IMG/VR virus record: IMGVR_UViG_3300032245_001520
Location: 1-64,000 of that record
DNA length: 64,000 nucleotides
Reading direction: 5' to 3' (one strand)
Source: a virus
Below, piece after piece: positions 3,648-62,617 of this stretch. Every line of letters starts with the position of its first letter. Within the stretch, counting starts at the first letter, position 1. Both the position numbers and the translations under genes were made by a program. The notes beneath the pieces are model-generated. The model made no database searches and was not told the DNA's origin. It worked only from the letters and a program-made list of their open reading frames with translations.

Positions 3648-3657
3648 GGGTAAAACC
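3648..3657 (+). promoter_or_regulatory. GGGTAAAACC element before the plus-strand gene
   Basis: Exact 10-base element, 22 bases before ATG 3680. It is the only copy on the plus strand and the only one serving a plus-strand gene, which shows that its orientation follows transcription. Confidence 0.7.
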
Positions 3658-3679
3658 AGTCAGAAGACAACCAACAATA

Positions 3680-4429
3680 ATGTTAGGTAAAACTACGTTC
3701 AATCTCAACAAAGGTCAGTACTCCGAAAAGTTGGGACGCATCATCGCCAACCACCGAACCAATTCTCGCCTCATCGGTGAACCCGCCGATTTCATTCTGC
3801 GGTCGTGCCGATTGACAGAGCAGTGGGGCAAACTCGGTGCCGACCCCGATACTGTCGTTTACCTCAGAAATGTTGATATCGCCGGAGGTCGTAAAGTCAA
3901 GATGCTTTCCCTCGAGCGTTCGGGAACGAAACAGCCAATCGGCAAGTCAAAACTTGTTGACGCGTTATACCCCGTCAAGAAAATTGCGACGACGGCAACG
4001 GCAGAGGAGAAACATTACAATGGTGTCAAAGCAGCAATGCGTCGTGCTGTGACATCGCAGTTGACCGGATTTCGCGATCTGCAGGCATTACCTGTTGTCT
4101 GCTACCTGACAGGAAAACACATCCGTCGTGGCATGCGCACGGATGTCGACCATGTTGGTACCCCCTTTTCGGAGCTTTGCGACCAATTTCTCTTGCTCAG
4201 GGACCTCAAGTACACTGACATCGCACTCGTAGGTCCCCCGACCGGCAAGCATTTCAAGGACGTTGAACTTTGGGTCGCTTGGCAAGACTACCACCGAGAG
4301 CACGCTCGCTATGCTCTTGTCTGTGCCTCTGCCAATCGCAGCAAGGGGAATGAAGGGTACACGACGCCGCCTGAACTCTACGGATCGTTCTCTGCGGAAG
4401 ACCCCGAGACCATGTCGTTGGACTTTTAA
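3680..4429 (+). CDS. DUF3223/HNH-like phage protein
   Basis: A 249-residue protein, the only convincing rightward gene in the window. It contains CYLTGK (141-146) followed by TDVDHVGTPFSELCDQFL (154-171). This order resembles the CPLTGK...HVDHV...TFKEL block that I associate with DUF3223 (DCL-like) phage proteins, where a degenerate HNH-type Cys/His pair is proposed. Here one Cys and DxDH remain. The ATG at 3680 is chosen because a GGGTAAAACC element and repeat copy A precede it; upstream in-frame ATGs lie inside that repeat. It converges on the fibre gene at 4446. Likely nucleic-acid-related, exact role unknown. Confidence 0.85.
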   Translation: MLGKTTFNLNKGQYSEKLGRIIANHRTNSRLIGEPADFILRSCRLTEQWGKLGADPDTVVYLRNVDIAGGRKVKMLSLERSGTKQPIGKSKLVDALYPVKKIATTATAEEKHYNGVKAAMRRAVTSQLTGFRDLQALPVVCYLTGKHIRRGMRTDVDHVGTPFSELCDQFLLLRDLKYTDIALVGPPTGKHFKDVELWVAWQDYHREHARYALVCASANRSKGNEGYTTPPELYGSFSAEDPETMSLDF

Positions 4430-4445
4430 TCTCCGCTCCCGAAAA

Positions 4446-4874
4446 TCAGAGCAGCGAGACAGTCCGCCAACCGGTCGGTGTGTACACTTCGGGTGCGTTG
4501 AACGTCGTATTCCATCGGATCATGCCGATGACTCCGACAGGTCGCTCTGAGGTGAGACCGGCAGGGAGTTGAGCAGCGCCGACGTCCGACGTCTTGACGA
4601 CGACTCTCGCCGTGTTGACCGACAGAGTTCCGGTCGTTGTGATCGGAGCGTTCGCGGGCAGAGACGTCTGGAGACCATCACCGGCAGCGACAGATGTCAC
4701 CGTACCGAGACCGCCTGTGGCGATGGATCCGAACGACGTCCAGACGCCACGGGCACCGTCGTAGACGTAGGTGAAGCTGTTGCTCGTATTTGCCAGCGGT
4801 GTGGATGCTGGCGAGAACGTGTTCGAGGGAGTTTGCGCCGCTGCTTGGGTGGGGGTGGGGAAGGTGATTGCCAT
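4446..4874 (-). CDS. Small tail-fibre-like protein
   Basis: A 142-residue protein. It starts with the short FP-P adaptor pattern (MAITFPTPTQ), followed by a Tyr/Trp strand (FTYVYDGARGVW), as in the genes at 17048 and 62111. A central fibre repeat (GTVTSVAAGDGL; ITTTGTLSVN) leads to a C-terminal segment (TSERPVGVIGMIRWNTTFNAPEVYT) like one inside the fibre at 15233. Last gene of its transcription unit, 11 bases after the 986-residue fibre. Probably a fibre tip, accessory spike or relic of a larger fibre. Confidence 0.8.
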   Translation of the reverse strand: MAITFPTPTQAAAQTPSNTFSPASTPLANTSNSFTYVYDGARGVWTSFGSIATGGLGTVTSVAAGDGLQTSLPANAPITTTGTLSVNTARVVVKTSDVGAAQLPAGLTSERPVGVIGMIRWNTTFNAPEVYTPTGWRTVSLL

Positions 4875-4885
4875 TGGGTGTTAGG

Positions 4886-7846
4886 TTAGGGGAGGGCGGG
4901 GAGGGCTGTGATAGCAAGATTATTAGCCAATCGGGCAGAATCAACGCGGACGCCGTGAGTTGATGCCCCGTTCCATGCCATTAGAGTAGGGAAAGTCGCT
5001 TGCCAAGGGTTGGTGGCGTTGGTGTCATTGACTGCAGACCCGTCCGGTGCTGTCCCTGCGGAAGCGTCGAAGATGACGTGGCCATTTCCATACTGCTTCC
5101 ACCCCAACAAACCAACAACGTTGGCGCCAACCAACCCATTCGTAACCCAGTTAGCGGCAGTTGAGGTTAGTGCGGCAGCAGTCCCCGTGACGTTAATCCC
5201 CCAGGTGCCAGATGCCCGAGCGCCAGTCGTTCCAGGGTACAGTGCCTCTTGCTCCTCCTGAGAGATGCGCAGGCGATACCAGGCAGACCAGACGCCGTTG
5301 TTGCAGTCTCGCTGCCAAGTTTGGGTGTCGGCGGCAGTATCGGAGGTGAACGAACAAACTGTCTGGGTGGGCCAAGGGGTATTCTGAGAGACCACAGTGC
5401 CGCAGTACCAGCCTGTGGGGGTAGGGGCATTCTCTGCGTCAAGAGCCGCGTACCACCCGTTTTCAACGGCGTCATTCCAGTCCGTGATCAGCTGAGCTAA
5501 AGCACCTAGCCTCGTCGGCAGCGTGTAGGTTGGGGGGATGGCGGTGGATGACAACAGGCCGTTGGCGTCGGCGACGACCATGCGAGTGCCTGTACCGGCA
5601 AGGTTGGAGATAATTACTACACCTCCGGCGCTAATATTTATTCTTTCCTGAAGGGTCTGACCAGCAGTGCCCACAGGTCTAGTAAAAAACCCTAATCCAC
5701 CTTGTATTTCTGTTGTGGCCGTATTAGCCAAGAGACCTTGGACTTTCGCCATTGGGGCAGCGGCGGGAAGCACGGTAAGACCGAAGTTGACGGCACCTCC
5801 ATCGCCCGCTGCGTAGCCACCGTTGCTAACCGTGAAATCTCCGCCTACGACTTGAAGTCGCGATTGCGGATCGTTTGTACCAATACCGACGTCAGTTGTC
5901 GCCGTGGTGGTCGGATACAGATTGGTTCCCACTTGTGTCCAAACCTGACTCAATCCATCCAACTTAGTCTTATCTGCCGACGACATTGAACCGGCAGTGG
6001 TCGTTGTCGCAGCGTTGATACTGATTGCGGGGGTGGCGCCACCAGAGGAGACGATAGGCAGAGTGCCAGTGACGTCGGTTACGGTTCCACCGCCAGGGAC
6101 TGCTTGTGTGCTCAGGACGCCAGTTGCGTCCGCAACGACCATCCGGGTGCCTGCTCCCGCCAAGTTACCAACAGTGACGGGGCCAGTTTCGGCCACACTG
6201 ATCCGCGCGACACCCGCCGTGACAAGGTTTACCGTTTTACCTTGCAAGGCCAAAACGTCGTAGGCAGTGTTGGCAGGGTCCACTGCGCTGATAGTGAACC
6301 CGCCAGCGCGATTGTCAAACAGCCCTCTGAAGGTGGTCGCCAGGATGTCCAGCTTAGCTGCTGCTGCGGTTAGACCACCAATCGCAACTTCACTTGTGGA
6401 GACCGTGGGGTATAGGCTGTTACCAGCCTGCGTCCAAACCTGACTCAATCCGTCCAGTTTGACCTTGTCCGCCGACGACATCGAACCGGCAGTGGTGGTA
6501 GTGGCGGCGTTGATACTAATGTCCGGAGCAGCGCCACCGGAGGAAACAATAGGTAGAGTGCCGGTGACGCCAGTTACTGTGCCTGCGGGGATGGCAGCAG
6601 AGGAAAGCAGACCGTTAGCATCAGCAACAACCATCCGGGTGCCGGTGCCAGACAGATTGGAAATAGTTATCAATCCGCCAGAACTGATACTCAGTCTCTC
6701 GGCCAAAGATTGGCCAGCGGCACCAAGGGGTCTTGTTAAAAAACTTACGCCGCCTTGCAACTCAGTTCCAGGCGCATTAGCCAGAGCACCTTGGATTTTC
6801 GCCATGGGGGAGTAGGTTGAAGCGGAGGCGATTCCAAAGTTGATAACCCCTCCCTCTCCGGGAGTGAACCCGCCCGTGCTAACAGTAATTTCTCCCCCGG
6901 AAACATGAAGACGCGTTTGCGGCGTAGTTAATCCAATGCCCACTTCAGTCGTTGCAGTGGCGGTCGGATACAAGTCGGTGCCGGCCTGGGTCCAGTCTCC
7001 GCCGCCAGCGGGGATGGATTGGGTGCTGAGGACGCCGCTGGCGTCCGCGGTGACCATCCGGGTGCCTGTGCCACTCAGACTGCGAACGGTCACGAGGCCA
7101 GCTGTGGACACACCTATCTGTGCAACCCCGTTTGTTACGAGGTTGACTTCACTGCCTTGCAGTGTTAGAATACTTTGGGCACTGTTTCCTGCGTTGACCG
7201 AGGTAACTGTAAACCCCCCAGCCCTGTCATCAAACAACCCCCTATAGACCCCTGCCAGGATGTCTAGCTTGGCCGCCGCTGCGGTAAGCCCGCCAAGTGC
7301 AACGTTGCTTGTGGTGATTGTGGGGTACAGATTGTTACCCGCCTGCGTCCAAGGTTCAGATGGCAACGCCTGGGCGCTGAGGACGCCCGTTGCACTGGCC
7401 GTGACCATTCGGGTACCGGCCCCTGCAAGACTTCCAAGGGTGACTGCGTTTGCAGGTGTTACGGTTATAGGAGTGCTAGCGTTGGCGACGAATCCGTCCG
7501 TTGTGTACTGAAGAATGAGGTTATCGCCATCGAGGGCCCACCGATATCCTTTAGTGGTCTCCGTTTGCAACAGGGCAAGGTTCGCAAAAGGACTAAGAAG
7601 AACTGCACCGCCGTTAACCTGAAGCAAAAATCCTGCCTTAACCGTCGTCGTCCCAATGCCCACCGCATTGCCAATAACACTCGGACTCAAAATGTTGCCA
7701 CTTACAGTCCAAGGTTGGGTCGAGCTGATAACCCCGGTAGGAGAGATGGCGATGCCAGCCCCTGCCACAACACCTTGCGCTCTCCCTGGGAGGACGACGC
7801 CTTTGGTGCTGTCCCCGGCGATTAATTGGGCTTGCGAGAGAGGCAT
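4886..7846 (-). CDS. Long tail fibre with pyocin-knob-like and receptor-binding tip
   Basis: A 986-residue trimeric-fibre candidate. N-terminal adaptor MPLSQAQLIAGDSTKGVVL belongs to the RAQ/GDST class shared with genes at 7968 and 16418. The shaft is built from alternating, partly duplicated modules (GTGTRMVVADANGLLS, LTAAAAKLDILA, SMSSADKVKLDGLS). Near residues 770-860 lies a knob-like block (NGWYAALDAENAPTPTGWY... NGVWSAWYRL). The end (GWKQYGNGHVIFDASAG ... WNGASTHGVRVDSARLA) resembles receptor-binding tips of cyanophage fibres as I remember them. The last residues are ITALPALP, a tail shared with two other fibres. It is preceded both by a host-type promoter and by a GGGTAAAACC element. 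Confidence 0.9.
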   Translation of the reverse strand: MPLSQAQLIAGDSTKGVVLPGRAQGVVAGAGIAISPTGVISSTQPWTVSGNILSPSVIGNAVGIGTTTVKAGFLLQVNGGAVLLSPFANLALLQTETTKGYRWALDGDNLILQYTTDGFVANASTPITVTPANAVTLGSLAGAGTRMVTASATGVLSAQALPSEPWTQAGNNLYPTITTSNVALGGLTAAAAKLDILAGVYRGLFDDRAGGFTVTSVNAGNSAQSILTLQGSEVNLVTNGVAQIGVSTAGLVTVRSLSGTGTRMVTADASGVLSTQSIPAGGGDWTQAGTDLYPTATATTEVGIGLTTPQTRLHVSGGEITVSTGGFTPGEGGVINFGIASASTYSPMAKIQGALANAPGTELQGGVSFLTRPLGAAGQSLAERLSISSGGLITISNLSGTGTRMVVADANGLLSSAAIPAGTVTGVTGTLPIVSSGGAAPDISINAATTTTAGSMSSADKVKLDGLSQVWTQAGNSLYPTVSTSEVAIGGLTAAAAKLDILATTFRGLFDNRAGGFTISAVDPANTAYDVLALQGKTVNLVTAGVARISVAETGPVTVGNLAGAGTRMVVADATGVLSTQAVPGGGTVTDVTGTLPIVSSGGATPAISINAATTTTAGSMSSADKTKLDGLSQVWTQVGTNLYPTTTATTDVGIGTNDPQSRLQVVGGDFTVSNGGYAAGDGGAVNFGLTVLPAAAPMAKVQGLLANTATTEIQGGLGFFTRPVGTAGQTLQERINISAGGVVIISNLAGTGTRMVVADANGLLSSTAIPPTYTLPTRLGALAQLITDWNDAVENGWYAALDAENAPTPTGWYCGTVVSQNTPWPTQTVCSFTSDTAADTQTWQRDCNNGVWSAWYRLRISQEEQEALYPGTTGARASGTWGINVTGTAAALTSTAANWVTNGLVGANVVGLLGWKQYGNGHVIFDASAGTAPDGSAVNDTNATNPWQATFPTLMAWNGASTHGVRVDSARLANNLAITALPALP

Positions 7847-7874: not shown

Positions 7875-7884
7875 GGTTTTACCC
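7875..7884 (-). promoter_or_regulatory. GGGTAAAACC element for the 986-residue fibre
   Basis: Exact copy inside a longer inverted repeat (GGGGTAAAACCCC), 28 bases before ATG 7846, in a 121-base intergenic gap that also holds a host-type promoter. Confidence 0.7.
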
Positions 7885-7939: not shown

Positions 7940-7967
7940 ATTGTATCATAGATTGTCCAAAAGTAAA
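7940..7967 (-). promoter_or_regulatory. Sigma-70-like promoter upstream of fibre gene
   Basis: TTTACT (7962-7967), 16-base spacer, TACAAT (7940-7945). The -35 hexamer directly follows the stop codon of the upstream fibre gene. Transcription from here would start near 7933 and read through the GGGTAAAACC element, so this gene may be expressed in two phases. Confidence 0.6.
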
Positions 7968-10223
7968 CTAGACAGGTGCGATAGTAGTTGCCACAAACGA
8001 AGCGCCAGTCGGAGGTGCGCCATTGAACGTGATTGCACTACCAGCCACTTCGTACGCATTACCAGCACCTGGCGTCTGAATCACCCCGCCGACGAACACT
8101 TGAATGTTGGTCGCAGGCGTCGGAGGGAATGCAACACCACTAACCTTGAGGTCAAAAGACGTTTCGGTGCCGTCAAAGTCGCCGGAGATGTCGTCAAAAT
8201 AGACGTATTTGGCACCGCCAGGCGCCGCAGCCCACGCAAGGCCCGTCGCGGTCCCGCTGTCAGCCGTGAGGACCAGGCCATTGGCACCCACAGGGAGAAT
8301 CGCCGGAGCGTTGTTGCCAGTCGCGGAGATCAGGTTGCCCTTGGCAGTGACAATCGACTGCAGAATCGGTGCGGTGCCCGCAGTGATCGCAGTGACGCGT
8401 CCTTTACTATCAACAGTGACCGAGGTCGGGTATGCCGAGGTGCTGGCGGGATCGGGAGCCAGATCGACGAGGCTGACGGTGACATTGCCCGTTCCGCCCG
8501 AGACAGCGATTTGGTTCGGCGTACCCGCGATCGAGTCAACGACAGTCGCCCATTTGAGGCCAGTGGCCGTGGTGCTGTCAGCGACCAGCGCGTAGCCATT
8601 GGTGCCAGCGGCGAGTTCGCCCACGACAGCGTTCGCTGTGCCCACGAGCACGTGGCCTTTGCCAGTGGCGGTTGCCTTGGGCACAGCAGCATCGGCAACG
8701 GTCTTGACCGCAGTCAGCTGTGCCTCGGTGGAAACGTCGGTGGTCGATGCACCGCCAAGGTTACCGCTGAGGCGAACCACACCGTAGATGGCCGTCGTTG
8801 CTTGCTGCACCTCAGGACCGATGGGCAGATAGATCCACTGAGTTCCGTCGGACAGGAACCAGTCACCAGGCTTGACGTTGGTGTAGGCAGTGCCGCCTGG
8901 GGGTGTGTAGCTGGCAGCGCCAGTCGTGACGATAACGAAGATGCTCTTGTTGGCATTGCTTGCCGCAGGAAGAGCAGCACCGTTGGCAAGGCCACCAGCG
9001 ATACCTTCAGCGGTGACGTCGGCGGTCAGACCCGTCGCAGCATTCAGTGTGCCGCCCAGAGTCAGACCGGAGCCGAGTCCGGAGATTTGCTGCTGCAGGA
9101 CGAAGATCTGGTTGGCAGTGGCGCCCAGAGTGGTGCTTTGGCTGTCCGAACCGTCGTAGAGTTGGACGACACCAGCTTGCGTCGTCGAGGCACTCTTGAC
9201 ACTGATGGTGCCACCGGCGGTAACGTCGATGTTAGTGCCGACCTGAACAACGCCAAGGTCCGTAGCGGATGCAGGGTTGACGCTGATGGAAACGGTGCCG
9301 GTGGGTGCGCTGACCTCGACGGGGCCGACAGCAGTGATGCTGTTGACGAGAGTGGCCCACTTGACGCCATAGTTGGTGACGGTGGAGTCAGCGACGAGTG
9401 CTTGGCCGTTGGTGCCAACATTCAGAATGACTTGGTCGCTGGTCTGACCAGGAGAGCCAACGACGAGCTGGCCGACAGCGGTCCACGCGATGCCGTCGGG
9501 GTCGGACCAGAACAGTGGGCCGCCAGCGCCGCCGGATCGCAGTTGCTGACCGTTGGTGCCAGCGGTGGCGGGCCAGGTGTAGTCGTTGTACGGTTTGGCG
9601 CCAGTGACGCCGTCCCAGAGTTGAACCTTGGTCTCCTCCAGCACGCGACCGGCATTGGCCGTCAGGGCCTGAGTCAGCGAGGTGCTGGCAAGAGTATCGT
9701 TGAGTTGGACGGCACCGGCTGCGGTCGTCGTAGCACCCGTGATGCCGATGATGGGGTTGGTTGCTGTGCCGGTGTTGCTGATGGGAGCAGTCACCGTGAC
9801 GGAAACCACGCCACCAGGAGTGATGTTCGTCCACTTGATGCCACCGGGGGAGGCGCTGTCGGCTTCGAGGAACTGGCCGTCGACACCGGGGTTGACGTAG
9901 ACGTAAGTACCAGCGCCGGTACCAGCAATCAGCTGACCGAGCGAGGTGAAGTTGAGACTGAAGGGATCGGACCACGCCAGCGTGTTGGCAGGACCGAGCG
10001 TCAGCTGCTGGTTCTGTGTGCCTGCAACTGCGGGCCAGACGTAAGCGTTGAACGCACCGGCGGAGTTGAGACGGACGAAGTCGGTAAGACTAGTCTGGTT
10101 GATCGAGATCTCACCAGTCGCCGAGATGGTGATGCCTGTGCCTGCGGTGACGCCAACGCCACCGGGAACGAGTGTCCCTAGGGTGGAGTTGCCCTGCAGG
10201 AGTTGTGCGCGGTTAAGAGCCAT
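7968..10223 (-). CDS. Tail fibre, 751 residues
   Basis: N-terminal adaptor MALNRAQLLQGNSTLGTLV (RAQ class). The shaft carries repeated phage-fibre motifs (AGAVQLNDTLAS, QLTAVKTVADAAVPKA, TSVTVDSKGRVTAI) and repeats around LVADSTTATGLKWA. The C-terminal module has DDISGDFDGTETSFDL, VFVGGVIQTPG, and YEVAGSAITFNGAPPTGASF. This end recurs in genes at 10306, 17048, 18522 and 25873 and looks like a mobile beta-sandwich cap. A GGGTAAAACC element lies 68 bases upstream of the ATG, a longer leader than usual. The opposite strand is also open for 746 codons, which is a composition artefact of the repetitive gene. Confidence 0.9.
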   Translation of the reverse strand: MALNRAQLLQGNSTLGTLVPGGVGVTAGTGITISATGEISINQTSLTDFVRLNSAGAFNAYVWPAVAGTQNQQLTLGPANTLAWSDPFSLNFTSLGQLIAGTGAGTYVYVNPGVDGQFLEADSASPGGIKWTNITPGGVVSVTVTAPISNTGTATNPIIGITGATTTAAGAVQLNDTLASTSLTQALTANAGRVLEETKVQLWDGVTGAKPYNDYTWPATAGTNGQQLRSGGAGGPLFWSDPDGIAWTAVGQLVVGSPGQTSDQVILNVGTNGQALVADSTVTNYGVKWATLVNSITAVGPVEVSAPTGTVSISVNPASATDLGVVQVGTNIDVTAGGTISVKSASTTQAGVVQLYDGSDSQSTTLGATANQIFVLQQQISGLGSGLTLGGTLNAATGLTADVTAEGIAGGLANGAALPAASNANKSIFVIVTTGAASYTPPGGTAYTNVKPGDWFLSDGTQWIYLPIGPEVQQATTAIYGVVRLSGNLGGASTTDVSTEAQLTAVKTVADAAVPKATATGKGHVLVGTANAVVGELAAGTNGYALVADSTTATGLKWATVVDSIAGTPNQIAVSGGTGNVTVSLVDLAPDPASTSAYPTSVTVDSKGRVTAITAGTAPILQSIVTAKGNLISATGNNAPAILPVGANGLVLTADSGTATGLAWAAAPGGAKYVYFDDISGDFDGTETSFDLKVSGVAFPPTPATNIQVFVGGVIQTPGAGNAYEVAGSAITFNGAPPTGASFVATTIAPV

Positions 10224-10291: not shown

Positions 10292-10301
10292 GGTTTTACC
10301 C
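10292..10301 (-). promoter_or_regulatory. GGGTAAAACC element for the 751-residue fibre
   Basis: Exact copy (GAGGGTAAAACCCTTCAAC context), four bases after the TAG of the upstream gene and 68 bases before ATG 10223. Confidence 0.7.
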
Positions 10302-10305
10302 TCGT

Positions 10306-10788
10306 CTACGGCAAGACACTCACAATGCTAAATGCCGCAAATGTCAGTCCCGTCGGTGGCGGATTGGAGAATGCCACTCTGCACCGACCAGCATTCACAT
10401 TGAATGTGTACGCATCCGGCAGTTGGAACACACCGCCGAGAAACACTTGAATATTCGTCGCTTCCACCACTTTGTCGTTGCCTTGATAGGTAAGGAAGAA
10501 CGTCGTCCTGACCCCGTCAAACTGTCCCGAGATGTCGTCCCAGTTGAGAAATGTCCAGTCGCCACCGACGCCACCCGAAGACGAGATGACAACGTCTCCG
10601 ATACCGGCAGGCGGGTCCAGAGTGATGTTGGTTCCGGCAATGATTCGGTTTACTGCACCGCCACCACTCCGAACAATCCGCCATGTCGCTGTCACTGCCT
10701 CCCAGCGATACTGCGTCTGCCCCGGAAGTGGGGCGGTAGGGTACAGCTGACCGTTGGTTGGTGAAGGTGGGAAGGAGAGTAAGGACAT
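10306..10788 (-). CDS. Short fibre/adaptor protein, 160 residues
   Basis: The N-terminal 75 residues (FPPSPTNGQLYPTAPLPGQ, YRWEAVTATWRIVRSGGG, RIIAGTNITLDPPAGIGDV) are closely similar to the start of the 846-residue fibre at 12169. They are joined directly to the C-terminal cap module DDISGQFDGVRTTFFL / VFLGGVFQLPDAY. The gene is therefore an adaptor plus a cap with no shaft, which shows how modules are shuffled. It has its own GGGTAAAACC element 35 bases upstream. Confidence 0.85.
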   Translation of the reverse strand: MSLLSFPPSPTNGQLYPTAPLPGQTQYRWEAVTATWRIVRSGGGAVNRIIAGTNITLDPPAGIGDVVISSSGGVGGDWTFLNWDDISGQFDGVRTTFFLTYQGNDKVVEATNIQVFLGGVFQLPDAYTFNVNAGRCRVAFSNPPPTGLTFAAFSIVSVLP

Positions 10789-10823: not shown

Positions 10824-10833
10824 GGTTTTACCC
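10824..10833 (-). promoter_or_regulatory. GGGTAAAACC element for the 160-residue gene
   Basis: Exact copy (CAGGGTAAAACCCGTTAAC), 35 bases before ATG 10788 and 10 bases after the end of the 436-residue gene. Confidence 0.7.
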
Positions 10834-14741: not shown

Positions 14742-14751
14742 GGTTTTACCC
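14742..14751 (-). promoter_or_regulatory. GGGTAAAACC element for the LRR fibre unit
   Basis: Exact copy with the most typical downstream context (ACTCAACAGA), 32 bases before ATG 14709 and seven bases after the preceding gene. Confidence 0.7.
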
Positions 14752-17037: not shown

Positions 17038-17047
17038 GGTTTTACCC
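17038..17047 (-). promoter_or_regulatory. GGGTAAAACC element for the 198-residue fibre unit
   Basis: Exact copy, abutting the stop codon (17048-17050) of the preceding gene and 23 bases before ATG 17014. Confidence 0.72.
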
Positions 17048-17527
17048 TCACCCGCCACTAGAGATGGCGATGAACGAGGCATCGGACGACGGTGCTTCGA
17101 AGAACGAGATGGTCGATCCGACAACTTCATAGGAGTCGCCGTACACCTGGGAAACACCGCCGACCGAGACGAAGATGTTGGTCGGAGGGTTGGGGGAGAA
17201 AGGAGTCATCGTCCCTGCCATCACCAGAGTGAAGTCACCGAGGACTCCGTTGAACGGTTCCAGCAGTTCGAGCGACTGGAAGAAGCTGCGACCGGAAAGG
17301 TCCCAGGTGACGCCGTCGACACCTATTCGACTCAGCTGTGTCCCAGCAGGGCCATTCGCAGCAGACCAGACGTATCCGTTGTACGCAAGCTGGTTATTGG
17401 TGCGGACGAACGATGGCACCACGTCCCACTTTGTTCCGTCCCAGCGCCATTGGCTTACGCCAGGGGTGCCGGGGTCCGCGGGAAACCGCTGGTTTAGGGT
17501 GGGAGAAGCAGGGAATGTTAGAGCCAT
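17048..17527 (-). CDS. Short fibre/adaptor with cap module
   Basis: A 159-residue protein. The N-terminus has the FP-P pattern and WRWDGTKWDVVPS, a Trp-rich adaptor. The middle has NNQLAYNGYVWSAANG, a segment also seen in the 693-residue fibre. The C-terminal cap module has LGDFTLVMAG, FVSVGGVSQVYGDSYEVVGS and ISFFEAPSSDASF. As in the gene at 10306 there is almost no shaft between adaptor and cap. Its unit is a single gene bounded by two GGGTAAAACC elements. Confidence 0.85.
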   Translation of the reverse strand: MALTFPASPTLNQRFPADPGTPGVSQWRWDGTKWDVVPSFVRTNNQLAYNGYVWSAANGPAGTQLSRIGVDGVTWDLSGRSFFQSLELLEPFNGVLGDFTLVMAGTMTPFSPNPPTNIFVSVGGVSQVYGDSYEVVGSTISFFEAPSSDASFIAISSGG

Positions 17528-17550: not shown

Positions 17551-17560
17551 GGTTTTACCC
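17551..17560 (-). promoter_or_regulatory. GGGTAAAACC element overlapping a stop codon
   Basis: Exact copy in an extended inverted repeat (AAAGGGTAAAACCCTTT), 23 bases before ATG 17527. Its bases GGG TAA are the last Gly codon and stop of the glycosyltransferase gene. Confidence 0.75.
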
Positions 17561-18493: not shown

Positions 18494-18520
18494 ATTGTAG
18501 CGGTGGTGTGACAGTGTAAA
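18494..18520 (-). promoter_or_regulatory. Sigma-70-like promoter for the glycosyltransferase
   Basis: TTTACA (18515-18520), 15-base spacer, TACAAT (18494-18499), in the 49-base gap between the 693-residue fibre and the glycosyltransferase. GTGAGTTTACA at its upstream edge matches the thyX promoter. Confidence 0.7.
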
Positions 18521-18521
18521 C

Positions 18522-20603
18522 TCACGCGACAGTCACAATGATCATCGATGTACTGTTAGGGGGAGCAGTGGCAAAGGTTAGGGTACTTCCCGTGAAATTG
18601 TAATGAAGACCAGGCACCTGGGGAACCCCTCCAACAAACACAAGAAGATTGTTCGCGGACGGTGAATATGGAACTCCACTAGAAGACATTCCAAACACAG
18701 TCGCAGTGCCATTGGGCGCGGGAGTCGTAGCGAGGAAGAGGAAGGAGGGGTTGCCCGCAGCACCAGGTGCGCTGAGGATACCGTCTCCGTCGACGAACAC
18801 CGTCGCGTTGTCCGGCCTCACGACGCCGACGGCAGTGGTCGTCGCTGCGGTGATGCCGAGCGTCGGCGTGGTAACAGCGCCGGTCTTTGTCAAAGGTGCT
18901 GTGACCGAGACACTTTGCACTGCGGTACCAGTGGCAGCTGCTATGAGTTGACCCTGTGCGTTAACCGTAATGTTCGCGTTGGCATAAACACCAGGAGTTA
19001 CGCCGCTGTTCGCCAACGAGATCGTGCCGGTGGACGTGATGGGTCCGCCAGTCAGACCGGTGCCGGTGGCCACAGAGGTCACAGGTGTGTCACCGCTTGC
19101 CGCTGCTGTCAGACGACCTTGGGGGTCGACGGTGAACGACCCGTATGTGTAGTCACCAGCAGCGACTGCCGTATTCGCGAGAGAGACGGTGCCGACACTA
19201 ATGATAGGACCGCCAGTCAGACCAGTGCCGGTGTTGACTCGGGTGACGGTGCCCGTGCCGGTGCTAGCGCCATCGCATATCTGCGTGATGCGACCTTGCT
19301 GATCGACTGTTACGTCTGCATTGAGATAAGTGCCAGGGATGACTGTTGTGTCAGACAGGTAGACTGTGCCAACAGTTGTGATCGGACCACCCATGAGTCC
19401 GACGCCAGTGTCGATTTGAGTGACGGTGCCGTTGACTCCACACTGCGACCGCCATCCGACCTGACCGGTGACCTTATCGAGCAGGGTGAGGACCGACCCA
19501 TTCTGGCCAGGGGCGATGCCCGGCGAGGTAGGGATTGGCCAGATGTACGAGTTGTAGGAATATGGGTTGTTGGTGCGGACCACTTGGTCAGCACTAATGA
19601 CGCCATCCGTTCCGATGCTAATGTTGGTGCCTGCCCGGACGCCACCGAGGGTCGTGGCAGTCGGAGGGAGGAGACGGATCGTGCCGCTGGTCGTGATTAG
19701 ATTGCCCGAGACCGGAGCGCCGAGTCCAGGACCCGCCTGAATGCTGGTGACGGTGCCGAGGTTGACGGACGACAACTCGCCCTGGGCAGTGATGTTGAGT
19801 CCGTTGCCGATGGAAACGGTGCCACGGGTGACTCGTGTGGCAGGGGCGACTGAGACGCCAGGGAATGTTTGGGTGGGCGAGAAGACGATGTCTCCTGCCA
19901 TCGTACCACCTGCAAGAGGCAGTTTGGTGTTGGTGACAGCAAGAGCAGCGATGACTGAGTCTGCAACCGTCTTGACTGCCTTACTCGTCGCTGCTTGTGT
20001 CGAAGAACTGCTGTCGGTGGCGTCCGAGAGAGTTGTGAGACCGAACGCACCGCCAGTCGTGGCGATCTTGTCGCGCAGGGTCAGAGGGGTGACAGCGAGA
20101 CTGCCATTGTTGCCATCGACAACCTGCTGTGATGTGGCAAGTTGGATGACACCTCGACCACCAAGAGAGGCAGAGGGGACGTCGATCTGACCAGCATTGA
20201 TCGTGAGCGACGGTCCGACACGGACGATACCCGCGATTGCGTTCGTGGCGACGTTGGCATTGAGGGTGACTGTTCCGCTGAGACCGCCACCGTTGAGTCC
20301 GGTGCCCGCGACGACCCCAGTGATGGTGCCGGTTCCGGGAGAGGCGACGGAGATGGTGCCATCGGGGGATATTTGGACATTCGCCCCCGCTTTAACTCCT
20401 CCGATTTGGCCAGCGAGAGGTGGCAGCAGACCGACAGTGCCTGTCGTTGCGATGGTGCCGCCAGACAAACCAGTGCCAAATGTGATCGAGGTGACAGTGC
20501 CGCCAGCGGTGGAGGCGACGTTGAGGTATCCTTCCTGGTCTACTGACAGTCCCGCACCCAACAGCAGGGTTCCTTGGGGCCAAGTTACGTTGAAAGCAGG
20601 CAT
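18522..20603 (-). CDS. Tail fibre, 693 residues
   Basis: The start (MPAFNVTWPQGTLLLGAGLSVDQEGYLNV) differs from the main adaptor classes but keeps the GxGLxVxxxGYLNV strand also seen at 53670. The shaft has many copies of GTGLTGGPI(T/I)(S/T)xGTV and VTVDQQGRIT-like repeats, typical of phage fibres. A NPYSYNSYIWPIPTS segment resembles one in the genes at 7968 and 17048. The cap module ends the protein (VFVGGVPQVPGLHYNFTGS, LTFATAPPNSTSM). The GGGTAAAACC element is 27 bases upstream. Confidence 0.9.
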   Translation of the reverse strand: MPAFNVTWPQGTLLLGAGLSVDQEGYLNVASTAGGTVTSITFGTGLSGGTIATTGTVGLLPPLAGQIGGVKAGANVQISPDGTISVASPGTGTITGVVAGTGLNGGGLSGTVTLNANVATNAIAGIVRVGPSLTINAGQIDVPSASLGGRGVIQLATSQQVVDGNNGSLAVTPLTLRDKIATTGGAFGLTTLSDATDSSSSTQAATSKAVKTVADSVIAALAVTNTKLPLAGGTMAGDIVFSPTQTFPGVSVAPATRVTRGTVSIGNGLNITAQGELSSVNLGTVTSIQAGPGLGAPVSGNLITTSGTIRLLPPTATTLGGVRAGTNISIGTDGVISADQVVRTNNPYSYNSYIWPIPTSPGIAPGQNGSVLTLLDKVTGQVGWRSQCGVNGTVTQIDTGVGLMGGPITTVGTVYLSDTTVIPGTYLNADVTVDQQGRITQICDGASTGTGTVTRVNTGTGLTGGPIISVGTVSLANTAVAAGDYTYGSFTVDPQGRLTAAASGDTPVTSVATGTGLTGGPITSTGTISLANSGVTPGVYANANITVNAQGQLIAAATGTAVQSVSVTAPLTKTGAVTTPTLGITAATTTAVGVVRPDNATVFVDGDGILSAPGAAGNPSFLFLATTPAPNGTATVFGMSSSGVPYSPSANNLLVFVGGVPQVPGLHYNFTGSTLTFATAPPNSTSMIIVTVA

Positions 20604-20630: not shown

Positions 20631-20640
20631 GGTTTTACCC
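20631..20640 (-). promoter_or_regulatory. GGGTAAAACC element for the 693-residue fibre
   Basis: Exact copy (GAGGGTAAAACCACTTTAAG), 27 bases before ATG 20603, 25 bases after the preceding gene. Confidence 0.72.
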
Positions 20641-25853: not shown

Positions 25854-25863
25854 GGTTTTACCC
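25854..25863 (-). promoter_or_regulatory. GGGTAAAACC element for the YadA-fibre unit
   Basis: Exact copy, 51 bases before ATG 25802. The leader between them contains a short GGGG-TCTA-CCCC hairpin. Confidence 0.7.
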
Positions 25864-30870: not shown

Positions 30871-30880
30871 GGTTTTACCC
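30871..30880 (-). promoter_or_regulatory. GGGTAAAACC element for the 1650-residue protein
   Basis: Exact copy, one base after the stop codon of the 55-residue gene and 45 bases before ATG 30825. A small AGAGT/ACTCT hairpin lies in the leader. Confidence 0.72.
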
Positions 30881-33194: not shown

Positions 33195-33204
33195 GGTTTT
33201 ACCC
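33195..33204 (-). promoter_or_regulatory. GGGTAAAACC element with adjacent repeat copy C
   Basis: Exact copy, 25 bases before ATG 33169. Repeat copy C begins directly upstream (33206), so the two form one composite regulatory block. Confidence 0.75.
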
Positions 33205-33205: not shown

Positions 33206-33240
33206 TGCCATGTGTTCGATCGATCATGCTTGTTCGAGCA
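33206..33240 (-). repeat. Composite repeat, copy C (short form)
   Basis: On the minus strand it contains GATCGATCGAACACATGGCA (33206-33225), identical over 20 bases to copies A and B, preceded by a degenerate second unit (GCTCGAACAAGCATG). It lies at the boundary between the 246-residue gene and the 165-residue gene. Confidence 0.85.
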
Positions 33241-34961: not shown

Positions 34962-34971
34962 GGTTTTACCC
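34962..34971 (-). promoter_or_regulatory. GGGTAAAACC element for the Cys-cluster protein unit
   Basis: Exact copy directly abutting the stop of the acidic-tail gene (34972) and 21 bases before ATG 34940. Confidence 0.73.
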
Positions 34972-35362: not shown

Positions 35363-35372
35363 GTTTTTACCC
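35363..35372 (-). promoter_or_regulatory. GGGTAAAAAC variant element overlapping a stop codon
   Basis: One-base variant, 22 bases before ATG 35340. As at 17551 and 55496, GGG TAA within it is the final Gly codon and stop of the upstream gene, here a homing endonuclease. Confidence 0.65.
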
Positions 35373-36023: not shown

Positions 36024-36512
36024 TCACCTTTTTTCTATTTTACCGTCGGTGCGCTGAAGTAAACGCGAGTTCCCGGTCAGTCTGGCCTCGTGTTTTTTGC
36101 CCTCCACCTTCACCTCCGCTTTCATTTTTGCCTCACTTAGCATATCTTTCTTCCTCTCCTCCAGAGTCGGTTCTGACTCTTTCTCAGGTTCGAGTGCGGT
36201 GGCATGCTCCTTCAACTTCGCCTTCACCTCGTTTTTCACAATGCCCTCCTCAAACATTTTCTTTCCCTTTTCTTCGGGTGTTTGTTCCACGTTTTCCGGC
36301 ACGACCTTTCCACTCTCGTCGATTTTATGCCCCTTGGGTGCCTCTTTCTTGATTGCTTCGGGGGTGCTGAGGGAGGACAAACGATCTAGAATCTTGGCGT
36401 GGTCCTCGCCTAGCTTAAATCGGCAGACTGCGGATGCCTTAACAGACATAGGACCGCAGGGCATCTTGTGAAGTGTCAGCAAGTCCGAGAGTGAGGGTTT
36501 TTCTTTTGTCAT
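36024..36512 (-). CDS. Lys/Glu-rich helical protein
   Basis: A 162-residue protein from ATG 36510-36512, overlapping the stop of the preceding gene. The N-terminus contains LHKMPCGPMSVKASAVCRF, and the remainder is low-complexity, highly charged and probably a long helix (EEKGKKMFEEGIVKNEVKAK; KDMLSEAKMKAEVKVEGKKH). The end of the gene holds the promoter candidate for the homing endonuclease. Function unknown; possibly an internal or scaffold-type head protein. Confidence 0.68.
   Translation of the reverse strand: MTKEKPSLSDLLTLHKMPCGPMSVKASAVCRFKLGEDHAKILDRLSSLSTPEAIKKEAPKGHKIDESGKVVPENVEQTPEEKGKKMFEEGIVKNEVKAKLKEHATALEPEKESEPTLEERKKDMLSEAKMKAEVKVEGKKHEARLTGNSRLLQRTDGKIEKR
36037..36063 (-). 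promoter_or_regulatory. Candidate host-type promoter for the homing endonuclease
   Basis: TTTACT (36058-36063), 15-base spacer, TAAAAT (36037-36042), 20 bases before ATG 36017. It is inside the 3' end of the preceding gene. AAGGTGAG supplies a ribosome binding site. Confidence 0.5.
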
Positions 36513-39406: not shown

Positions 39407-39416
39407 GGTTTTACCC
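39407..39416 (-). promoter_or_regulatory. GGGTAAAACC element for the phoH unit
   Basis: Exact copy, abutting the stop codon (39417-39419) of the upstream gene and 23 bases before ATG 39383. Confidence 0.75.
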
Positions 39417-41714: not shown

Positions 41715-41724
41715 GGTTTTACCC
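41715..41724 (-). promoter_or_regulatory. GGGTAAAACC element for the terminase unit
   Basis: Exact copy (CAGGGTAAAACCACTCAAC), 22 bases before ATG 41692, with repeat copy B immediately upstream. Confidence 0.78.
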
Positions 41725-41793
41725 TGCCAGGTGTTCGATCGATGTGCCATGTGCGCACATGTGCCATGTGTTCGATCGATCGATGCATCGATG
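41725..41793 (-). repeat. Composite palindromic repeat, copy B
   Basis: On the minus strand: stacked ATCGAT/GATC palindromes, GAACACATGGCACAT, ATGTGCGCACAT, GGCACATCGATCGAACAC, and then the GGGTAAAACC element. Positions 41759-41793 equal copy A (3567-3601) over 35 bases on the opposite strand. It lies between a small fibre-unit gene and the terminase unit. Confidence 0.88.
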
Positions 41794-43186: not shown

Positions 43187-43549
43187 TCAACCCACGAATT
43201 GCGTTGTGGAACCGTCGGTATTGGTAAAGGTGATAACCTGCACTCGAGGTTGTGGATCCGCAACCGGCGCAGGGACCGCAGGTTTCCACTCGATGCCCAC
43301 CCAAACCTTCAACATCTGCTCCTCCATATCGAACCATAACTCTCCCAATGTTGGACTCGCCACCGAATCTTCGGGAAGAGAGACATGCGCCGGACCGGAC
43401 TTGACCAGGTTACCCGTGTGATCCTTGAAAAACAACCCTGGCGTCGAAGCATGATAGTTAACGACGATCTCGCCTGTCGACAGATTGCTCGGAGAGGGGC
43501 GACGATGGGCGACGTTTGACCGTTTAAGACGAAGAGTGGGGGTCGCCAT
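43187..43549 (-). CDS. Stand-alone KRS/GEL adaptor protein
   Basis: A 120-residue protein with only the adaptor module: LKRSNVAHRRPSPSNLSTGE, GLFFKDHTGNLVKSGPAHV, TLGELWFDMEEQMLKVWVG. It ends in a short beta-like tail (VQVITFTNTDGSTTQFVG). Like the gene at 25341 it lacks a shaft. The first gene after a terminator and a GGGTAAAACA variant. Confidence 0.82.
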   Translation of the reverse strand: MATPTLRLKRSNVAHRRPSPSNLSTGEIVVNYHASTPGLFFKDHTGNLVKSGPAHVSLPEDSVASPTLGELWFDMEEQMLKVWVGIEWKPAVPAPVADPQPRVQVITFTNTDGSTTQFVG

Positions 43550-43581: not shown

Positions 43582-43591
43582 TGTTTTACCC
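43582..43591 (-). promoter_or_regulatory. GGGTAAAACA variant element
   Basis: One-base variant, 32 bases before ATG 43549 and four bases after a strong terminator hairpin. This is good evidence that the element starts a new transcript. Confidence 0.68.
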
Positions 43592-44742: not shown

Positions 44743-44752
44743 GGTTTTACCC
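44743..44752 (-). promoter_or_regulatory. GGGTAAAACC element for the 348-residue fibre
   Basis: Exact copy, one base after the stop codon of the 77-residue gene and 51 bases before ATG 44691. Confidence 0.7.
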
Positions 44753-45001: not shown

Positions 45002-45011
45002 GATTTTACCC
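45002..45011 (-). promoter_or_regulatory. GGGTAAAATC variant element
   Basis: One-base variant, 14 bases before ATG 44987 or 20 before the alternative ATG 44981, and three bases after the preceding stop. Confidence 0.6.
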
Positions 45012-52469: not shown

Positions 52470-52479
52470 GGTTTTACCC
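52470..52479 (-). promoter_or_regulatory. GGGTAAAACC element heading the lectin-fibre unit
   Basis: Exact copy, six bases after the stop codon of paralogue 7 and 48 bases before ATG 52421. It would control six paralogues and the 65-residue gene (no other copy until 45011). Confidence 0.73.
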
Positions 52480-53669: not shown

Positions 53670-55400
53670 TCAGAAGCTGCCGCCGTCAACAGTTCCCGTG
53701 TACCTGAGTTGGTTCCCAGCAGGGTTGACTTCGAGCATTTGACCGGCAGTTCCGATGGGGAGAACACCTGGTCCTGGCCCAGTGGTGAGACCCTGGAGGA
53801 TAGTGCCTGGCTGGGCATACTCACTCTGACCCACCTCATTGAGAACGGTGCTCAAGAAGTCGTACGTAATCGCAGTGGTCGGACCAACGGGGTCAAGGAC
53901 GTCGTCCGCGATAAACACCGGACCCCTTTGGGTGGCGCTGGTTGGAATGCCGAGAAGAGTTTGGGGGGAGACGACTAAGGAAGCCTCTGACCCCGCATTG
54001 ACTTGCTCCTGTGTGGCGTATCGGGCGAGTCCGGACAGACTGGTGCTTGCGATTCTGCCGTTTAACGTGGACGGCGTAACAACCTTGAAGTCATTCTCAC
54101 CAATGTTGACCTCCAACTGAGTCGCCAACAGAGCCAGACCCGGACTGAACTCGCTTGCCTCCAGAGAGGACAGACCGAGAGGCGTCACAGCGATAGTATC
54201 GTCCGTGCCCGCCTGAGTCTCCCCAGGTTCTGCGAGGCGCACGATGCCCTTGACAGTGGTGCTGGCATCGGGTACCGAGGATGAACCGATGGGAATGTAC
54301 TCCCAAGCAGTGCCACTGCACACATACCAGTCGCCAGGGTTGACCGTGTCAGGTGTGCCACCGGGGGGAGTGTAGACTCCAGCAGTGTCGACCACCACGA
54401 AGTAGCTGGTAAGACCAGCAGCGGCAGCAGGCAGGTCAGCACCGACAGTGAAACCTTTGGCAGCACCTGCGGTGGTCACCGTGCTCACTTTGCCGGTGTT
54501 ACCGTTCAGTGTCCCTGCGAGTGTGAGTCCGCCACTGATAGACAGGTTGTTGATTTGAGTTTGGAGAGCAGCGCCAGCACTCGCAGTCAGAGCAATGGTG
54601 TCATCATTGAGAGCCAGAGAGTCTGTCAGTGCGACAACACCAGGAGTGCCGATGGCGCCATCTGCGACACTGATGATTGAGTTGCTATCAACGTTAATGT
54701 TCTGGCCGACCTGAAGTATGCCTGCCTGGCCAACAGAACCGGAGTTGACGCTGACGATACCAGCGGTGGCCGTCAGACCCGTGCCAGGTTGCATGACACC
54801 AACCGTGGTCGCAGAAGCGATGGCGACGCCGATGATGGCGTTGGTCGTGCCGATGACGCTGATGGATCCGGATCCCGCGATCGTCTCCACTCCACCCGGA
54901 CTGGGGAGAACCCACCGGACGCCAGTGGCAGAGGCAGGGTCAGCAGTCAGTACTGTTCCTGGCCCACCGATGGCAACGTTGACTGGAACGCCAGCGCCGG
55001 AAGCAGCCAGGATGGCGCCTTTCGCCGGATAGGCACCCGTGAGGACGGGCGGAGTGGCGTAAAGAGTGGGAGGAGCGTTGAGGCGACCGAAGGCATCGAA
55101 GGAGACACGACGAACATAGTCGTAGCTAGCAGCGGCGATACCAACGGTTGCGAGACCGATCGTGCCTGTGTCGATGATGCCAGTCGCGGGGTTGGTGACA
55201 ATACCGACGCCTGCCGTGACCTCGGAGACACCGCCACCACCACCACCACCACCAGTGACGTTCAGGTAGTTACCAGAAACTGCGAGACCTGACCCAACAA
55301 TCAACAGACCTGTGGGCGTGTTGAGACCGAATGTTGGCGGCCAGTAGAATGGCGAGTTGGGGATGGGGATTAGGAAACTTGGGGGATTAGGCAGCGACAT
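53670..55400 (-). CDS. Tail fibre, 576 residues
   Basis: Start at ATG 55398-55400; the frame is open upstream from a GTG at 55481, but that part contains a hairpin and looks like leader. N-terminus: MSLPNPPSFLIPIPNSPFYW, TGLLIVGSGLAVSGNYLNV, then a Gly tract. Shaft repeats: VMQPGTGLTATAGIVSVNSG, AGILQVGQNINVDSNSIISV, GVVALTDSLALNDDTIALTA, TVKGIVRLAEPGETQAG (Phage_fibre_2-like). The end (GTAGQMLEVNPAGNQLRYTG) is a strand pair also used inside the 1946-residue fibre. Element about 95 bases upstream, with a long structured leader. Confidence 0.87.
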   Translation of the reverse strand: MSLPNPPSFLIPIPNSPFYWPPTFGLNTPTGLLIVGSGLAVSGNYLNVTGGGGGGGGVSEVTAGVGIVTNPATGIIDTGTIGLATVGIAAASYDYVRRVSFDAFGRLNAPPTLYATPPVLTGAYPAKGAILAASGAGVPVNVAIGGPGTVLTADPASATGVRWVLPSPGGVETIAGSGSISVIGTTNAIIGVAIASATTVGVMQPGTGLTATAGIVSVNSGSVGQAGILQVGQNINVDSNSIISVADGAIGTPGVVALTDSLALNDDTIALTASAGAALQTQINNLSISGGLTLAGTLNGNTGKVSTVTTAGAAKGFTVGADLPAAAAGLTSYFVVVDTAGVYTPPGGTPDTVNPGDWYVCSGTAWEYIPIGSSSVPDASTTVKGIVRLAEPGETQAGTDDTIAVTPLGLSSLEASEFSPGLALLATQLEVNIGENDFKVVTPSTLNGRIASTSLSGLARYATQEQVNAGSEASLVVSPQTLLGIPTSATQRGPVFIADDVLDPVGPTTAITYDFLSTVLNEVGQSEYAQPGTILQGLTTGPGPGVLPIGTAGQMLEVNPAGNQLRYTGTVDGGSF

Positions 55401-55459
55401 GAGGTCTCCGAAGGCAGGGATATCTGTGGCGCAAAAGCGAGTTGTGAAAAAGTTGAGGA

Positions 55460-55477
55460 CCCCTGTAGAAACAGGGG
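55460..55477 (-). other. Leader hairpin before the 576-residue fibre
   Basis: CCCCTGT-TTCT-ACAGGGG, seven-base stem and four-base loop, in the leader between the GGGTAAAACC element and the ATG. Eight bases downstream is a TTTTT run. It could be a weak attenuator, an RNA stability structure or part of an N-terminal extension if GTG 55481 is used. Confidence 0.5.
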
Positions 55478-55495
55478 CCACGTTTATCGTTGTGT

Positions 55496-55505
55496 GGTTT
55501 TACCC
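55496..55505 (-). promoter_or_regulatory. GGGTAAAACC element overlapping a stop codon
   Basis: Exact copy for the 576-residue fibre unit. GGG TAA within it is the final Gly codon and stop of the second homing endonuclease. Confidence 0.7.
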
Positions 55506-56213
55506 TACCCTGACTCGATTTTCTTTGCCGTGGGGAAGGCCACGTGATTTTTGTTTGAGGGTGAGACTCCCGGCGCTGAGTGCACCCAATTCAGGGTGAA
55601 GAGGGTCTTCCCACTTTTGGGCAGCCACTTGTTTTCCTCTTTCTCGGCGTTCTTCTGTTGGGATGCCGCAGATGCCAACTCCGAGCTCTTTAGATCGGGC
55701 CCCACCTTTCGCCGCTCCCTTTAGACCGCACCTGCGTTGATAATCGGGGTCTTCGGCTATTCTTTTAGCGATAGCAGCGCGACCCCCCCTAGCAAGTCCT
55801 TCCTTGGTTCTTTTTGCCGCGTTCTTTTTGTTTCGTTCGCTCAAATAAACGGGGTCGTCTGAGTACATGCCCTTTTTCTCAGCCATAAGTTTAGCAGTGC
55901 TCCTCCTTCCATTCTCCCTGGCAACCTTTAATGAGACGCCCGTTCCAGAACACCCCTCATTGAGACAACAAGGGTTGTTAAGATCGGGACGAATTAAACG
56001 GTCTTCTACCAAGTTAGCCTGTTTCCATCCTTCATCAGAGTAAGGGAAACACTCTAGCACTTGCTTTTCAGCGTCGTAAAAATCCCAGGCCCACTTGTTT
56101 GTGCTAGGGGATCCCCAGTACTTTTCGTCGAAGACCCTTTCCTTGTGGACACCCCAGTAGAAGTATGAGGTGCCCGGAAAGGTGATTTTGTAAGTGTAGA
56201 TGCGCGGTTTCAC
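55500..56213 (-). CDS. GIY-YIG-like homing endonuclease
   Basis: A 237-residue protein from GTG 56211-56213 (an ATG is not available in the N-terminal region). N-terminus IYTYKITFPGTSYFYWGVHK with EKYWGSPSTNKWAWDF is a diverged GIY-YIG core: YxYK-I-T...YYxGxxK-like. A conserved Glu follows in ANLVEDRLIRPDLNNPCCLN. The rest is Arg/Lys-rich with repeated short helices (AKRTKEGLARGGRAAIAKRI; RRCGLKGAAKGGARSKELGV). AT content is higher than in the neighbouring fibres. Like the first homing endonuclease it ends in Gly-stop inside a GGGTAAAACC element, and it has a GGGTAAAACA variant 20 bases upstream. Confidence 0.85.
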   Translation of the reverse strand: MKPRIYTYKITFPGTSYFYWGVHKERVFDEKYWGSPSTNKWAWDFYDAEKQVLECFPYSDEGWKQANLVEDRLIRPDLNNPCCLNEGCSGTGVSLKVARENGRRSTAKLMAEKKGMYSDDPVYLSERNKKNAAKRTKEGLARGGRAAIAKRIAEDPDYQRRCGLKGAAKGGARSKELGVGICGIPTEERRERGKQVAAQKWEDPLHPELGALSAGSLTLKQKSRGLPHGKENRVRVG

Positions 56214-56233: not shown

Positions 56234-56243
56234 TGTTTTACCC
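56234..56243 (-). promoter_or_regulatory. GGGTAAAACA variant element before homing endonuclease 2
   Basis: One-base variant, 20 bases before GTG 56213 and 16 bases after the 1946-residue gene. Together with the exact copy at 55496 it brackets the homing endonuclease, as if the element had been duplicated around the insertion. Confidence 0.62.
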
Positions 56244-62100: not shown

Positions 62101-62110
62101 GGTGAGAACT

Positions 62111-62584
62111 TCAGGAAAGGGTACCGCAATCGATGAGAGAGATTTCAGAAGCGTCGTTTATTGTTACTCCTGCGCCGGAGCGGACGTAACCGTTGTCTTT
62201 CAGGTACGCCGTAACGGTACCGTTTACCCACCCGACAGTGACGAACGCTGCCGGATTGTTCGGAACTTCTGCTTGAAGGTAAATCGGTCCTTCAAACACC
62301 CCGCCATTTTGGTCGATGCTGTCGGTGGGATAGGGGACAACTGCCACCCACTGTGAACTGTTTAAGTCTTTGTAGTAGATGTTTAGGTTACTCGTGACTG
62401 TAGAGTACCACAGAGAACCATTGATCGGGTTTGCCGGAGGGGACGCCGACACGAACACAGGTGCGGAAGTGGGGGTCGTAACCTGGGTAGCAACCCATGA
62501 TGTTCCATTCCACTTGAAAGTTCTGCCTGTGTTAGAATATACCTGCCCTAGAGCAGGATTTGGAGGAAACGTCAGTGCTGCCAT
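62111..62584 (-). CDS. Short fibre/adaptor protein with FP-P start
   Basis: A 157-residue protein. N-terminus LTFPPNPALGQVYSNTGRTF and KWNGTSW is the FP-P/Trp adaptor also present at 4446 and 17048. The middle has GSLWYSTVTSNLNIYYKDLN and SSQWVAVVPYPTD, a Trp strand set resembling the end of the stand-alone adaptors. It finishes with GYVRSGAGVTINDASEISLI. First gene of the unit that contains the 1946-residue fibre; element 23 bases upstream. Confidence 0.83.
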   Translation of the reverse strand: MAALTFPPNPALGQVYSNTGRTFKWNGTSWVATQVTTPTSAPVFVSASPPANPINGSLWYSTVTSNLNIYYKDLNSSQWVAVVPYPTDSIDQNGGVFEGPIYLQAEVPNNPAAFVTVGWVNGTVTAYLKDNGYVRSGAGVTINDASEISLIDCGTLS

Positions 62585-62607
62585 TCGCCCTGGAGACTTC
62601 TTTGAGA

Positions 62608-62617
62608 GGTTTTACCC
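62608..62617 (-). promoter_or_regulatory. GGGTAAAACC element for the giant-fibre unit
   Basis: Exact copy (AAAGGGTAAAACCTCTCAAAG), 23 bases before ATG 62584 and 27 bases after the connector-like gene. Confidence 0.73.

Follow-up and report, generated by a model that had tools for sequence, protein, structure and literature searches.

The window analysed here is the whole of a 64,000-nucleotide stretch of DNA (positions 1 to 64,000 of IMG/VR virus record IMGVR_UViG_3300032245_001520), and it belongs to a contig of 82,344 bp. This contig covers part of the genome of a cyanophage that is akin to Synechococcus phage S-CBWM1 (Aokuangvirus; genome, 139 kb; host, Synechococcus CBW1002). Its terminase large subunit shares 55% identity with that of S-CBWM1, followed by 31% with that of S-TIM5, and closer terminase relatives than S-CBWM1 are encoded on many IMG/VR contigs. 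The annotated genes are mostly those for tail fibre, baseplate, head protease, PhoH, terminase and homing endonuclease, suggesting that the bulk of the contig is probably a late region, save for the side carrying thyX and the DNA polymerase exonuclease (1-3488).

We found 18 exact copies of the 10-mer GGGTAAAACC in the window, compared with 0.09 expected and with a maximum of one copy in 100 dinucleotide shuffles of the window. In the entire contig there are 24, of which 23 are on the minus strand and 1 is on the plus strand; the reversed word is absent from it. In an unbiased k-mer count of the contig, no other 10-mer on the minus strand was as over-represented as GGGTAAAACC (23 observed, 0.1 expected). 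Each of the 24 copies is oriented like the gene that follows it, and this holds also for the only plus-strand copy, at 3648 (binomial p 1e-7). The first-pass annotation, made from the letters of the window, had described 18 exact copies and four one-base variants of a strand-following element that is missing from the thyX side; our counts on both strands, in which the orientation was anything but random and 1-3488 held no copy, bore out each of these points. Six words in the window differ from GGGTAAAACC by one base: the four variants, at 35363, 43582, 45002 and 56234, all lie before genes, and the other two, at 26751 and 26787 within the ORF 25873-30825, look like chance occurrences. The positions of the element and of a second class of upstream signal are given in Table 1.

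Table 1. Copies of the element and second-class signals in the window
Feature	Position	Strand	Context
GGGTAAAACC	3648..3657	+	Sole plus copy; before plus-strand gene 3680-4429
GGGTAAAACC	7875..7884	-	Before 4886-7846 (tail fibre-like)
GGGTAAAACC	10292..10301	-	Before gene 7968-10223
GGGTAAAACC	10824..10833	-	Before gene 10306-10788
GGGTAAAACC	14742..14751	-	Before operon 14709-10844
GGGTAAAACC	17038..17047	-	Right after preceding stop codon; before operon 17014-14759
GGGTAAAACC	17551..17560	-	TAA is stop of preceding gene; before gene 17048-17527
GGGTAAAACC	20631..20640	-	Before gene 18522-20603
GGGTAAAACC	25854..25863	-	Before operon 25802-20666
GGGTAAAACC	30871..30880	-	Before gene 25873-30825 (1650 aa)
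GGGTAAAACC	33195..33204	-	Before operon with start 33169
GGGTAAAACC	34962..34971	-	Right after preceding stop; before gene at 34940
Variant GGGTAAAAAC	35363..35372	-	TAA is stop of preceding gene; before gene with start 35340
GGGTAAAACC	39407..39416	-	Before phoH-like gene 38568-39383
GGGTAAAACC	41715..41724	-	5' of small ORF and terminase large subunit gene 39657-41414
Variant GGGTAAAACA	43582..43591	-	Just past terminator-like hairpin; before gene at 43549
GGGTAAAACC	44743..44752	-	Before gene 43645-44691
Variant GGGTAAAATC	45002..45011	-	Before ORF with start 44987
GGGTAAAACC	52470..52479	-	Before minor-tail operon with start 52421
GGGTAAAACC	55496..55505	-	TAA is stop of preceding gene; before gene 53670-55481 (tail fibre)
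Variant GGGTAAAACA	56234..56243	-	Before gene 55500-56213 (homing endonuclease-like, GTG start)
GGGTAAAACC	62608..62617	-	Before operon with start 62584, including 1946-aa gene
Second class, GTTTAC-N17-TATACT	2049..2077	-	Before thyX gene (start 2002)
Second class, GTTTAC-N17-TACAAT	7940..7968	-	Upstream of element at 7875
Second class, GTTTAC-N16-TACAAT	18494..18521	-	Before gene with start 18472, itself without GGGTAAAACC
Second class, GTTTAC-N16-TAAAAT	36037..36064	-	Before homing endonuclease gene at 36017

In the contig, the distance from the first base of the element to the chosen start codon was usually 29-78 nt, in keeping with the placement shortly before start codons noted earlier; for the elements at 55496 and 41715 it is larger or hinges on the choice of start. 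Intergenic gaps with an element had a median length of 61 bp and those without one 8 bp. The claim that genes without the element begin within a few bases of the previous stop therefore fits the median, but several such genes have a long gap. In at least five cases (17551, 35363 and 55496 in the window; 68577 and 81848 in the contig), the preceding gene ends with the TAA of GGGTAA as its stop codon, and a single 6-mer would then be stop and promoter at once; elsewhere, the element begins directly after the preceding stop codon. Downstream of the element, counting the first G as 0, there is a trend towards M at position 10, T at 12 (22 of 28), A at 14 (20 of 28) and A at 15 (19 of 28). An extension of the consensus in this direction had been proposed and is real as a trend, but the core shared by the relatives is GGGTAAA(A/G), and the ACC at the end of the 10-mer is only local.

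Two other kinds of repeated sequence were observed close to the element. Words resembling ATCGATCG or ACATGGCACATGTGCGCACATG recur just 5' of several copies (window, near 3560-3640, 33210-33225 and 41725-41790; contig, near 66000-66060) and are possibly a terminator, replication or packaging feature. In addition, near-identical leaders of the form cagcagccaaGTTTAC...aaggttcaacgactag are present at 75635 and 77461 of the contig and at 192196, 193665 and 194599 of a relative, G002; a homing endonuclease gene follows the one at 75635, as though mobile gene and promoter moved together.

The element is conserved throughout the family. This point goes beyond those made in the first-pass annotation, as do the two phage sigma factors, the match to the -10 code of SigF and SigB and the sister element of S-TIM5, all described below. 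When the 7-mers preceding genes were counted using simple gene calls, with no motif assumed beforehand, GGGTAAA or GGTAAAA ranked first in each of the six related phages tested; the count for S-CBWM1 was 26 upstream of genes versus 1.7 expected. A drifted word had been expected in the divergent G015 clade, the sigma factor of which is 47% identical, but GGGTAAA was again the top pre-gene word. In related loci oriented by the terminase gene, the coding side has 274 copies of GGGTAAA and the opposite side 20, and 22 of 45 such loci have the element, with its core intact, between terL and the next gene. The flanks of these conserved elements have diverged, and the last bases of the element drift (ACC, ACT, ATT, GTT) while GGGTAAA is constant, giving the family consensus [A/C]GGGTAAA[A/G]YYN3YA. 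In Cr-LKS4, a Cylindrospermopsis phage (sigma, about 25%), the words that stood out over the first 50 kb were confined to TTGACA/TATAAT-like and Shine-Dalgarno-like ones. Among the matches listed in a scan of the collection for GGGTAAAACCNNTCAA were contigs with one copy each, seemingly unrelated; relatives were sought with the terminase and the sigma factors instead. Two side observations concern other records. In the relative IMGVR_UViG_3300032221_000294, about 15 repeats of a word around CAGCCTAACCTC are probably a tandem repeat within a gene. The first 50 kb of MW495066.1 ('Microcystis phage MaAM05') carry genes for ribosomal protein, secE, nusG, trpS and other housekeeping functions, and this record resembles a bacterial chromosome more than a phage.

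The genome of S-CBWM1 contains 49 copies of GGGTAAA, 43 of them on the plus strand, toward which coding is biased. For 37 copies, an annotated CDS starts no more than 120 nt away, typically at 30-36 nt. Genes behind the element include those for portal, head protease, sheath, major head, tape measure and endolysin. Genes were sorted by hand into classes according to their annotation: an element stands directly before 10 of 21 genes for structure or lysis, compared with none of 20 genes for replication, nucleotide metabolism or photosynthesis (Fisher p 5e-4). Some elements precede non-structural genes, for example those for NMN adenylyltransferase and a homing endonuclease, and three tRNA genes have an element 18-39 nt upstream.

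The anatomy of the element fits a one-box promoter. Across 162 non-redundant sites, no -35 information was detected, the information content being at most 0.06 from -40 to -4. A Y-R step, mostly Y-A, is found at +13/+14 from the first G in 68 of 131 elements, versus 12-41 at other offsets, and in only 1 of 13 antisense copies. If the A at +14 is taken as +1, the GGTAA core is placed at about -13 to -9. Hairpins resembling intrinsic terminators lie just upstream of 9 of 127 elements versus 5 of 659 places chosen at random (p 6e-5), an enrichment of about 10-fold.

A sister element was found in S-TIM5. Here the word is GTTTAAAG, and for 19 of its 23 occurrences a CDS starts no more than 100 nt away (mostly 26-51 nt); it occurs before late genes on both strands, including three divergent pairs, while GGGTAAA was absent before the 67 S-TIM5 genes examined. 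Among 26 genes of the T4-like phage Syn9, ATAAATA precedes 5 and GGGTAAA none.

With regard to the polymerase, a search of 12 related records for a T7-type RNA polymerase gave no match, with P-SSP7 detected as the positive control, and no bacterial-type beta domain was found in the same 12 records, with 14 of 14 control genomes positive. A Pfam search for a T4-type sliding clamp was silent, but equally so in Syn9, where a clamp is expected. S-CBWM1 and two large relatives each encode exactly two proteins with a sigma-2 domain, and S-TIM5 encodes one. The gp045 family was present in 10 of 15 records, with 51-57% identity, and a gp055-family sigma is likewise conserved in these phages. Neither gene lies on the contig of the window, a fragment, so that the candidate sigma factor is known from the relatives only. 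In gp055 of S-CBWM1, region 2 is followed by a region 4 that is weak in Pfam but correctly placed. In the gp045 family, region 2 was recognized (PF04542, E 1e-6), and the best relevant solved relative was Staphylococcus aureus SigB (E 3e-9), then FliA; a repeat protein outscored SigB, over a short stretch only. The structural model of the family (mean pLDDT 71, pTM 0.41) comprises sigma-2 (Z 13.0, 1.8 A, 77 aligned), sigma-3, a disordered linker and only three C-terminal helices, and Pfam region 4 was not found in the C-terminal part. The gp045 family, a candidate group-3 (SigF/SigB-type) sigma factor, has kept domains 2 and 3 and has no detectable -35-reading domain 4; however, a degenerate domain 4 is possible, since the confidence of the model is moderate and some structural alignments span the C-terminal region.

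Promoters of group-3 sigma factors offer a match to the element. Cyanobacterial SigF reads TAGGC (-32) and GGTAA (-12) (PMC2758279), and SigB reads GTTTAA and GGGTAT with a spacer of N15 (PMC9847131); GGTAA is part of GGGTAAA, and GGGTAT is one base away from it. The single sigma factor of S-TIM5, of SigF type, matched the gp045 family (E 1e-7) and not gp055 (E 0.63, no alignment). In S-TIM5, then, the layout is kept while both word and sigma factor have drifted, which, as one comparison, supports the pairing of the gp045-type sigma with the element. Resting on this lineage, on the resemblance of the words and on the domain layout, the pairing is the most likely one.

Taken together, we consider it likely that GGGTAAAACC is the late promoter of the S-CBWM1 lineage of cyanophages, a one-box promoter used by host core RNA polymerase with a gp045-type sigma. 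In this model, GGGTAAAA would mark the start of late, virus-building gene units and act alone as the -10/-12 element, without a -35 box; transcription would start at the A 14 nt past the first G, giving leaders of about 15-25 nt in most units; and a phage-encoded sigma factor of the gp045 family would direct the host core enzyme to the element.

A less likely alternative is a late promoter read by some other sigma factor; candidates are the SigF of the host, its SigA acting together with a phage activator, and gp055. The GGTAA at -12 of cyanobacterial SigF promoters (PMC2758279) does lie within the element, and the gp055 family is conserved in the same phages as the gp045 family. However, TAGGC at -32 was found upstream of only 4 of 154 elements, which is not enriched and indicates that the element is not a plain SigF promoter, and no other -35 signal was seen, the SigB-type GTTTA[AC] being upstream of 1 of 154. 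The ordinary domain 4 of gp055 is better suited to a two-box promoter, and S-TIM5 has the sister element although its only sigma factor is of SigF type.

The first-pass annotation had offered a late promoter or a leader/processing signal, and these two proposals fared differently. A signal in the RNA, namely a translation enhancer or a site for processing or stability of long polycistronic messages, would explain the fairly regular spacing between element and start codon, and Shine-Dalgarno-like words are scarce before the genes concerned (3 of 26). Yet that spacing ranges overall from 14 to more than 100 nt, the motif overlaps the preceding stop codon in several cases, and the word matches the -10 of SigF and SigB promoters. 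Moreover, the tRNA genes behind the element, the terminators directly upstream of it and the fixed Y-A step favour a start of transcription over an RNA-level signal, so that the promoter is strongly preferred and the leader or processing signal appears very improbable. Slighter still is the likelihood that the element binds a late activator, an antiterminator or a DNA-packaging or recombination protein instead of polymerase; a single conserved block with no second box would suit such a site, but the fixed Y-A step, the coding-strand bias and the lack of any other promoter-like box nearby point to direct recognition by polymerase. Chance, base composition or a recombination or mobile repeat, for which nothing speaks beyond the two in-gene one-mismatch words, can be practically dismissed given the count of 18 copies against 0.09 and conservation across the family with diverged flanks.

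The late promoter may be only one part of a larger programme. The second signal, GTTTAC-N15-18-TANNNT, was found 14 times on the minus strand of the contig and never on the plus strand (0.3 expected), and some of the contig genes that have a long gap and no element carry it. In S-CBWM1, 11 copies are on the plus strand and none on the minus strand, before psbA, hli, hsp20 and nucleotide genes; the strand bias is less pronounced in the larger relatives. This signal may serve as a middle promoter for gp055, the second phage sigma, with its ordinary domain 4, or for host SigA with an activator. A broader and tentative scheme, slightly less likely than not, would be a cascade of two phage sigma factors with no polymerase of the phage's own and possibly without T4 late factors, in which a SigF-derived sigma that has lost -35 recognition works on the one-box GGGTAAAA, the second sigma serves middle genes (thyX, psbA, hli, nucleotide metabolism) through GTTTAC-N15-18-TANNNT, and the late word has drifted together with its sigma from GGGTAAAA to GTTTAAAG.

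To our knowledge, late gene control is poorly described outside the T4-like and T7-like cyanophages. The analysis yields a word for the promoter, a prediction of where transcription starts, a map of the operons and a sigma candidate with a name, and the question is directly testable in a cultured pair, S-CBWM1 on Synechococcus CBW1002. If the proposal is true, it represents a second route, by a SigF-type sigma, to the -10-only late promoter design of T4. The element is also a simple marker in metagenomes for late units and for phages of a widespread lineage. Literature searches for GGGTAAA with phage and promoter, and for GTTTAAAG with cyanophage, returned nothing relevant; the genome papers of S-CBWM1 and S-TIM5 were outside their scope, and an earlier in-silico mention is possible there.

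Compared with known systems, the proposed promoter would belong to a kind already described, the late promoter dependent on a phage sigma, of which it appears to be a new variant. In T4, the late promoter (TATAAATA, gp55) likewise depends on a phage sigma that redirects host RNA polymerase to a single -10-type element, lacking a -35 box, before virion genes. Here, however, the word is GGGTAAAA and not TATAAATA, of which S-CBWM1 has no copy compared with 49 of GGGTAAA, as the first-pass annotation had anticipated in setting the element apart from the T4 type, and the candidate sigma is SigF/SigB-like; the T4-type trait of a phage sigma with host core polymerase was encountered in the relatives, the fragment carrying the window having no sigma gene. 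Cyanobacterial SigF promoters (PMC2758279) share the use of a group-3 sigma and a GGTAA spaced as expected relative to the inferred start, but the -32 box is absent here and the candidate sigma is phage-encoded and without detectable domain 4. The promoters of SigB in Bacillus and Staphylococcus (GTTTAA-N15-GGGTAT, PMC9847131) have a nearly identical -10 word, GGGTAT versus GGGTAA, but their -35 GTTTAA is not linked to the element. Ma-LMM01, another case of late genes in a cyanomyovirus outside the T4 core, has SigA-like late promoters with two boxes and no gp55-like sigma (PMC5780444). S-TIM5 (Aurunvirus) is a parallel in layout: its GTTTAAAG is likewise a single strand-following block of 8 bp, sometimes just past terminators, and the phage has a single sigma, of SigF type. 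The word differs from GGGTAAAA in two central bases and the last base, and S-TIM5 has a marine Synechococcus host and an AT-rich genome.
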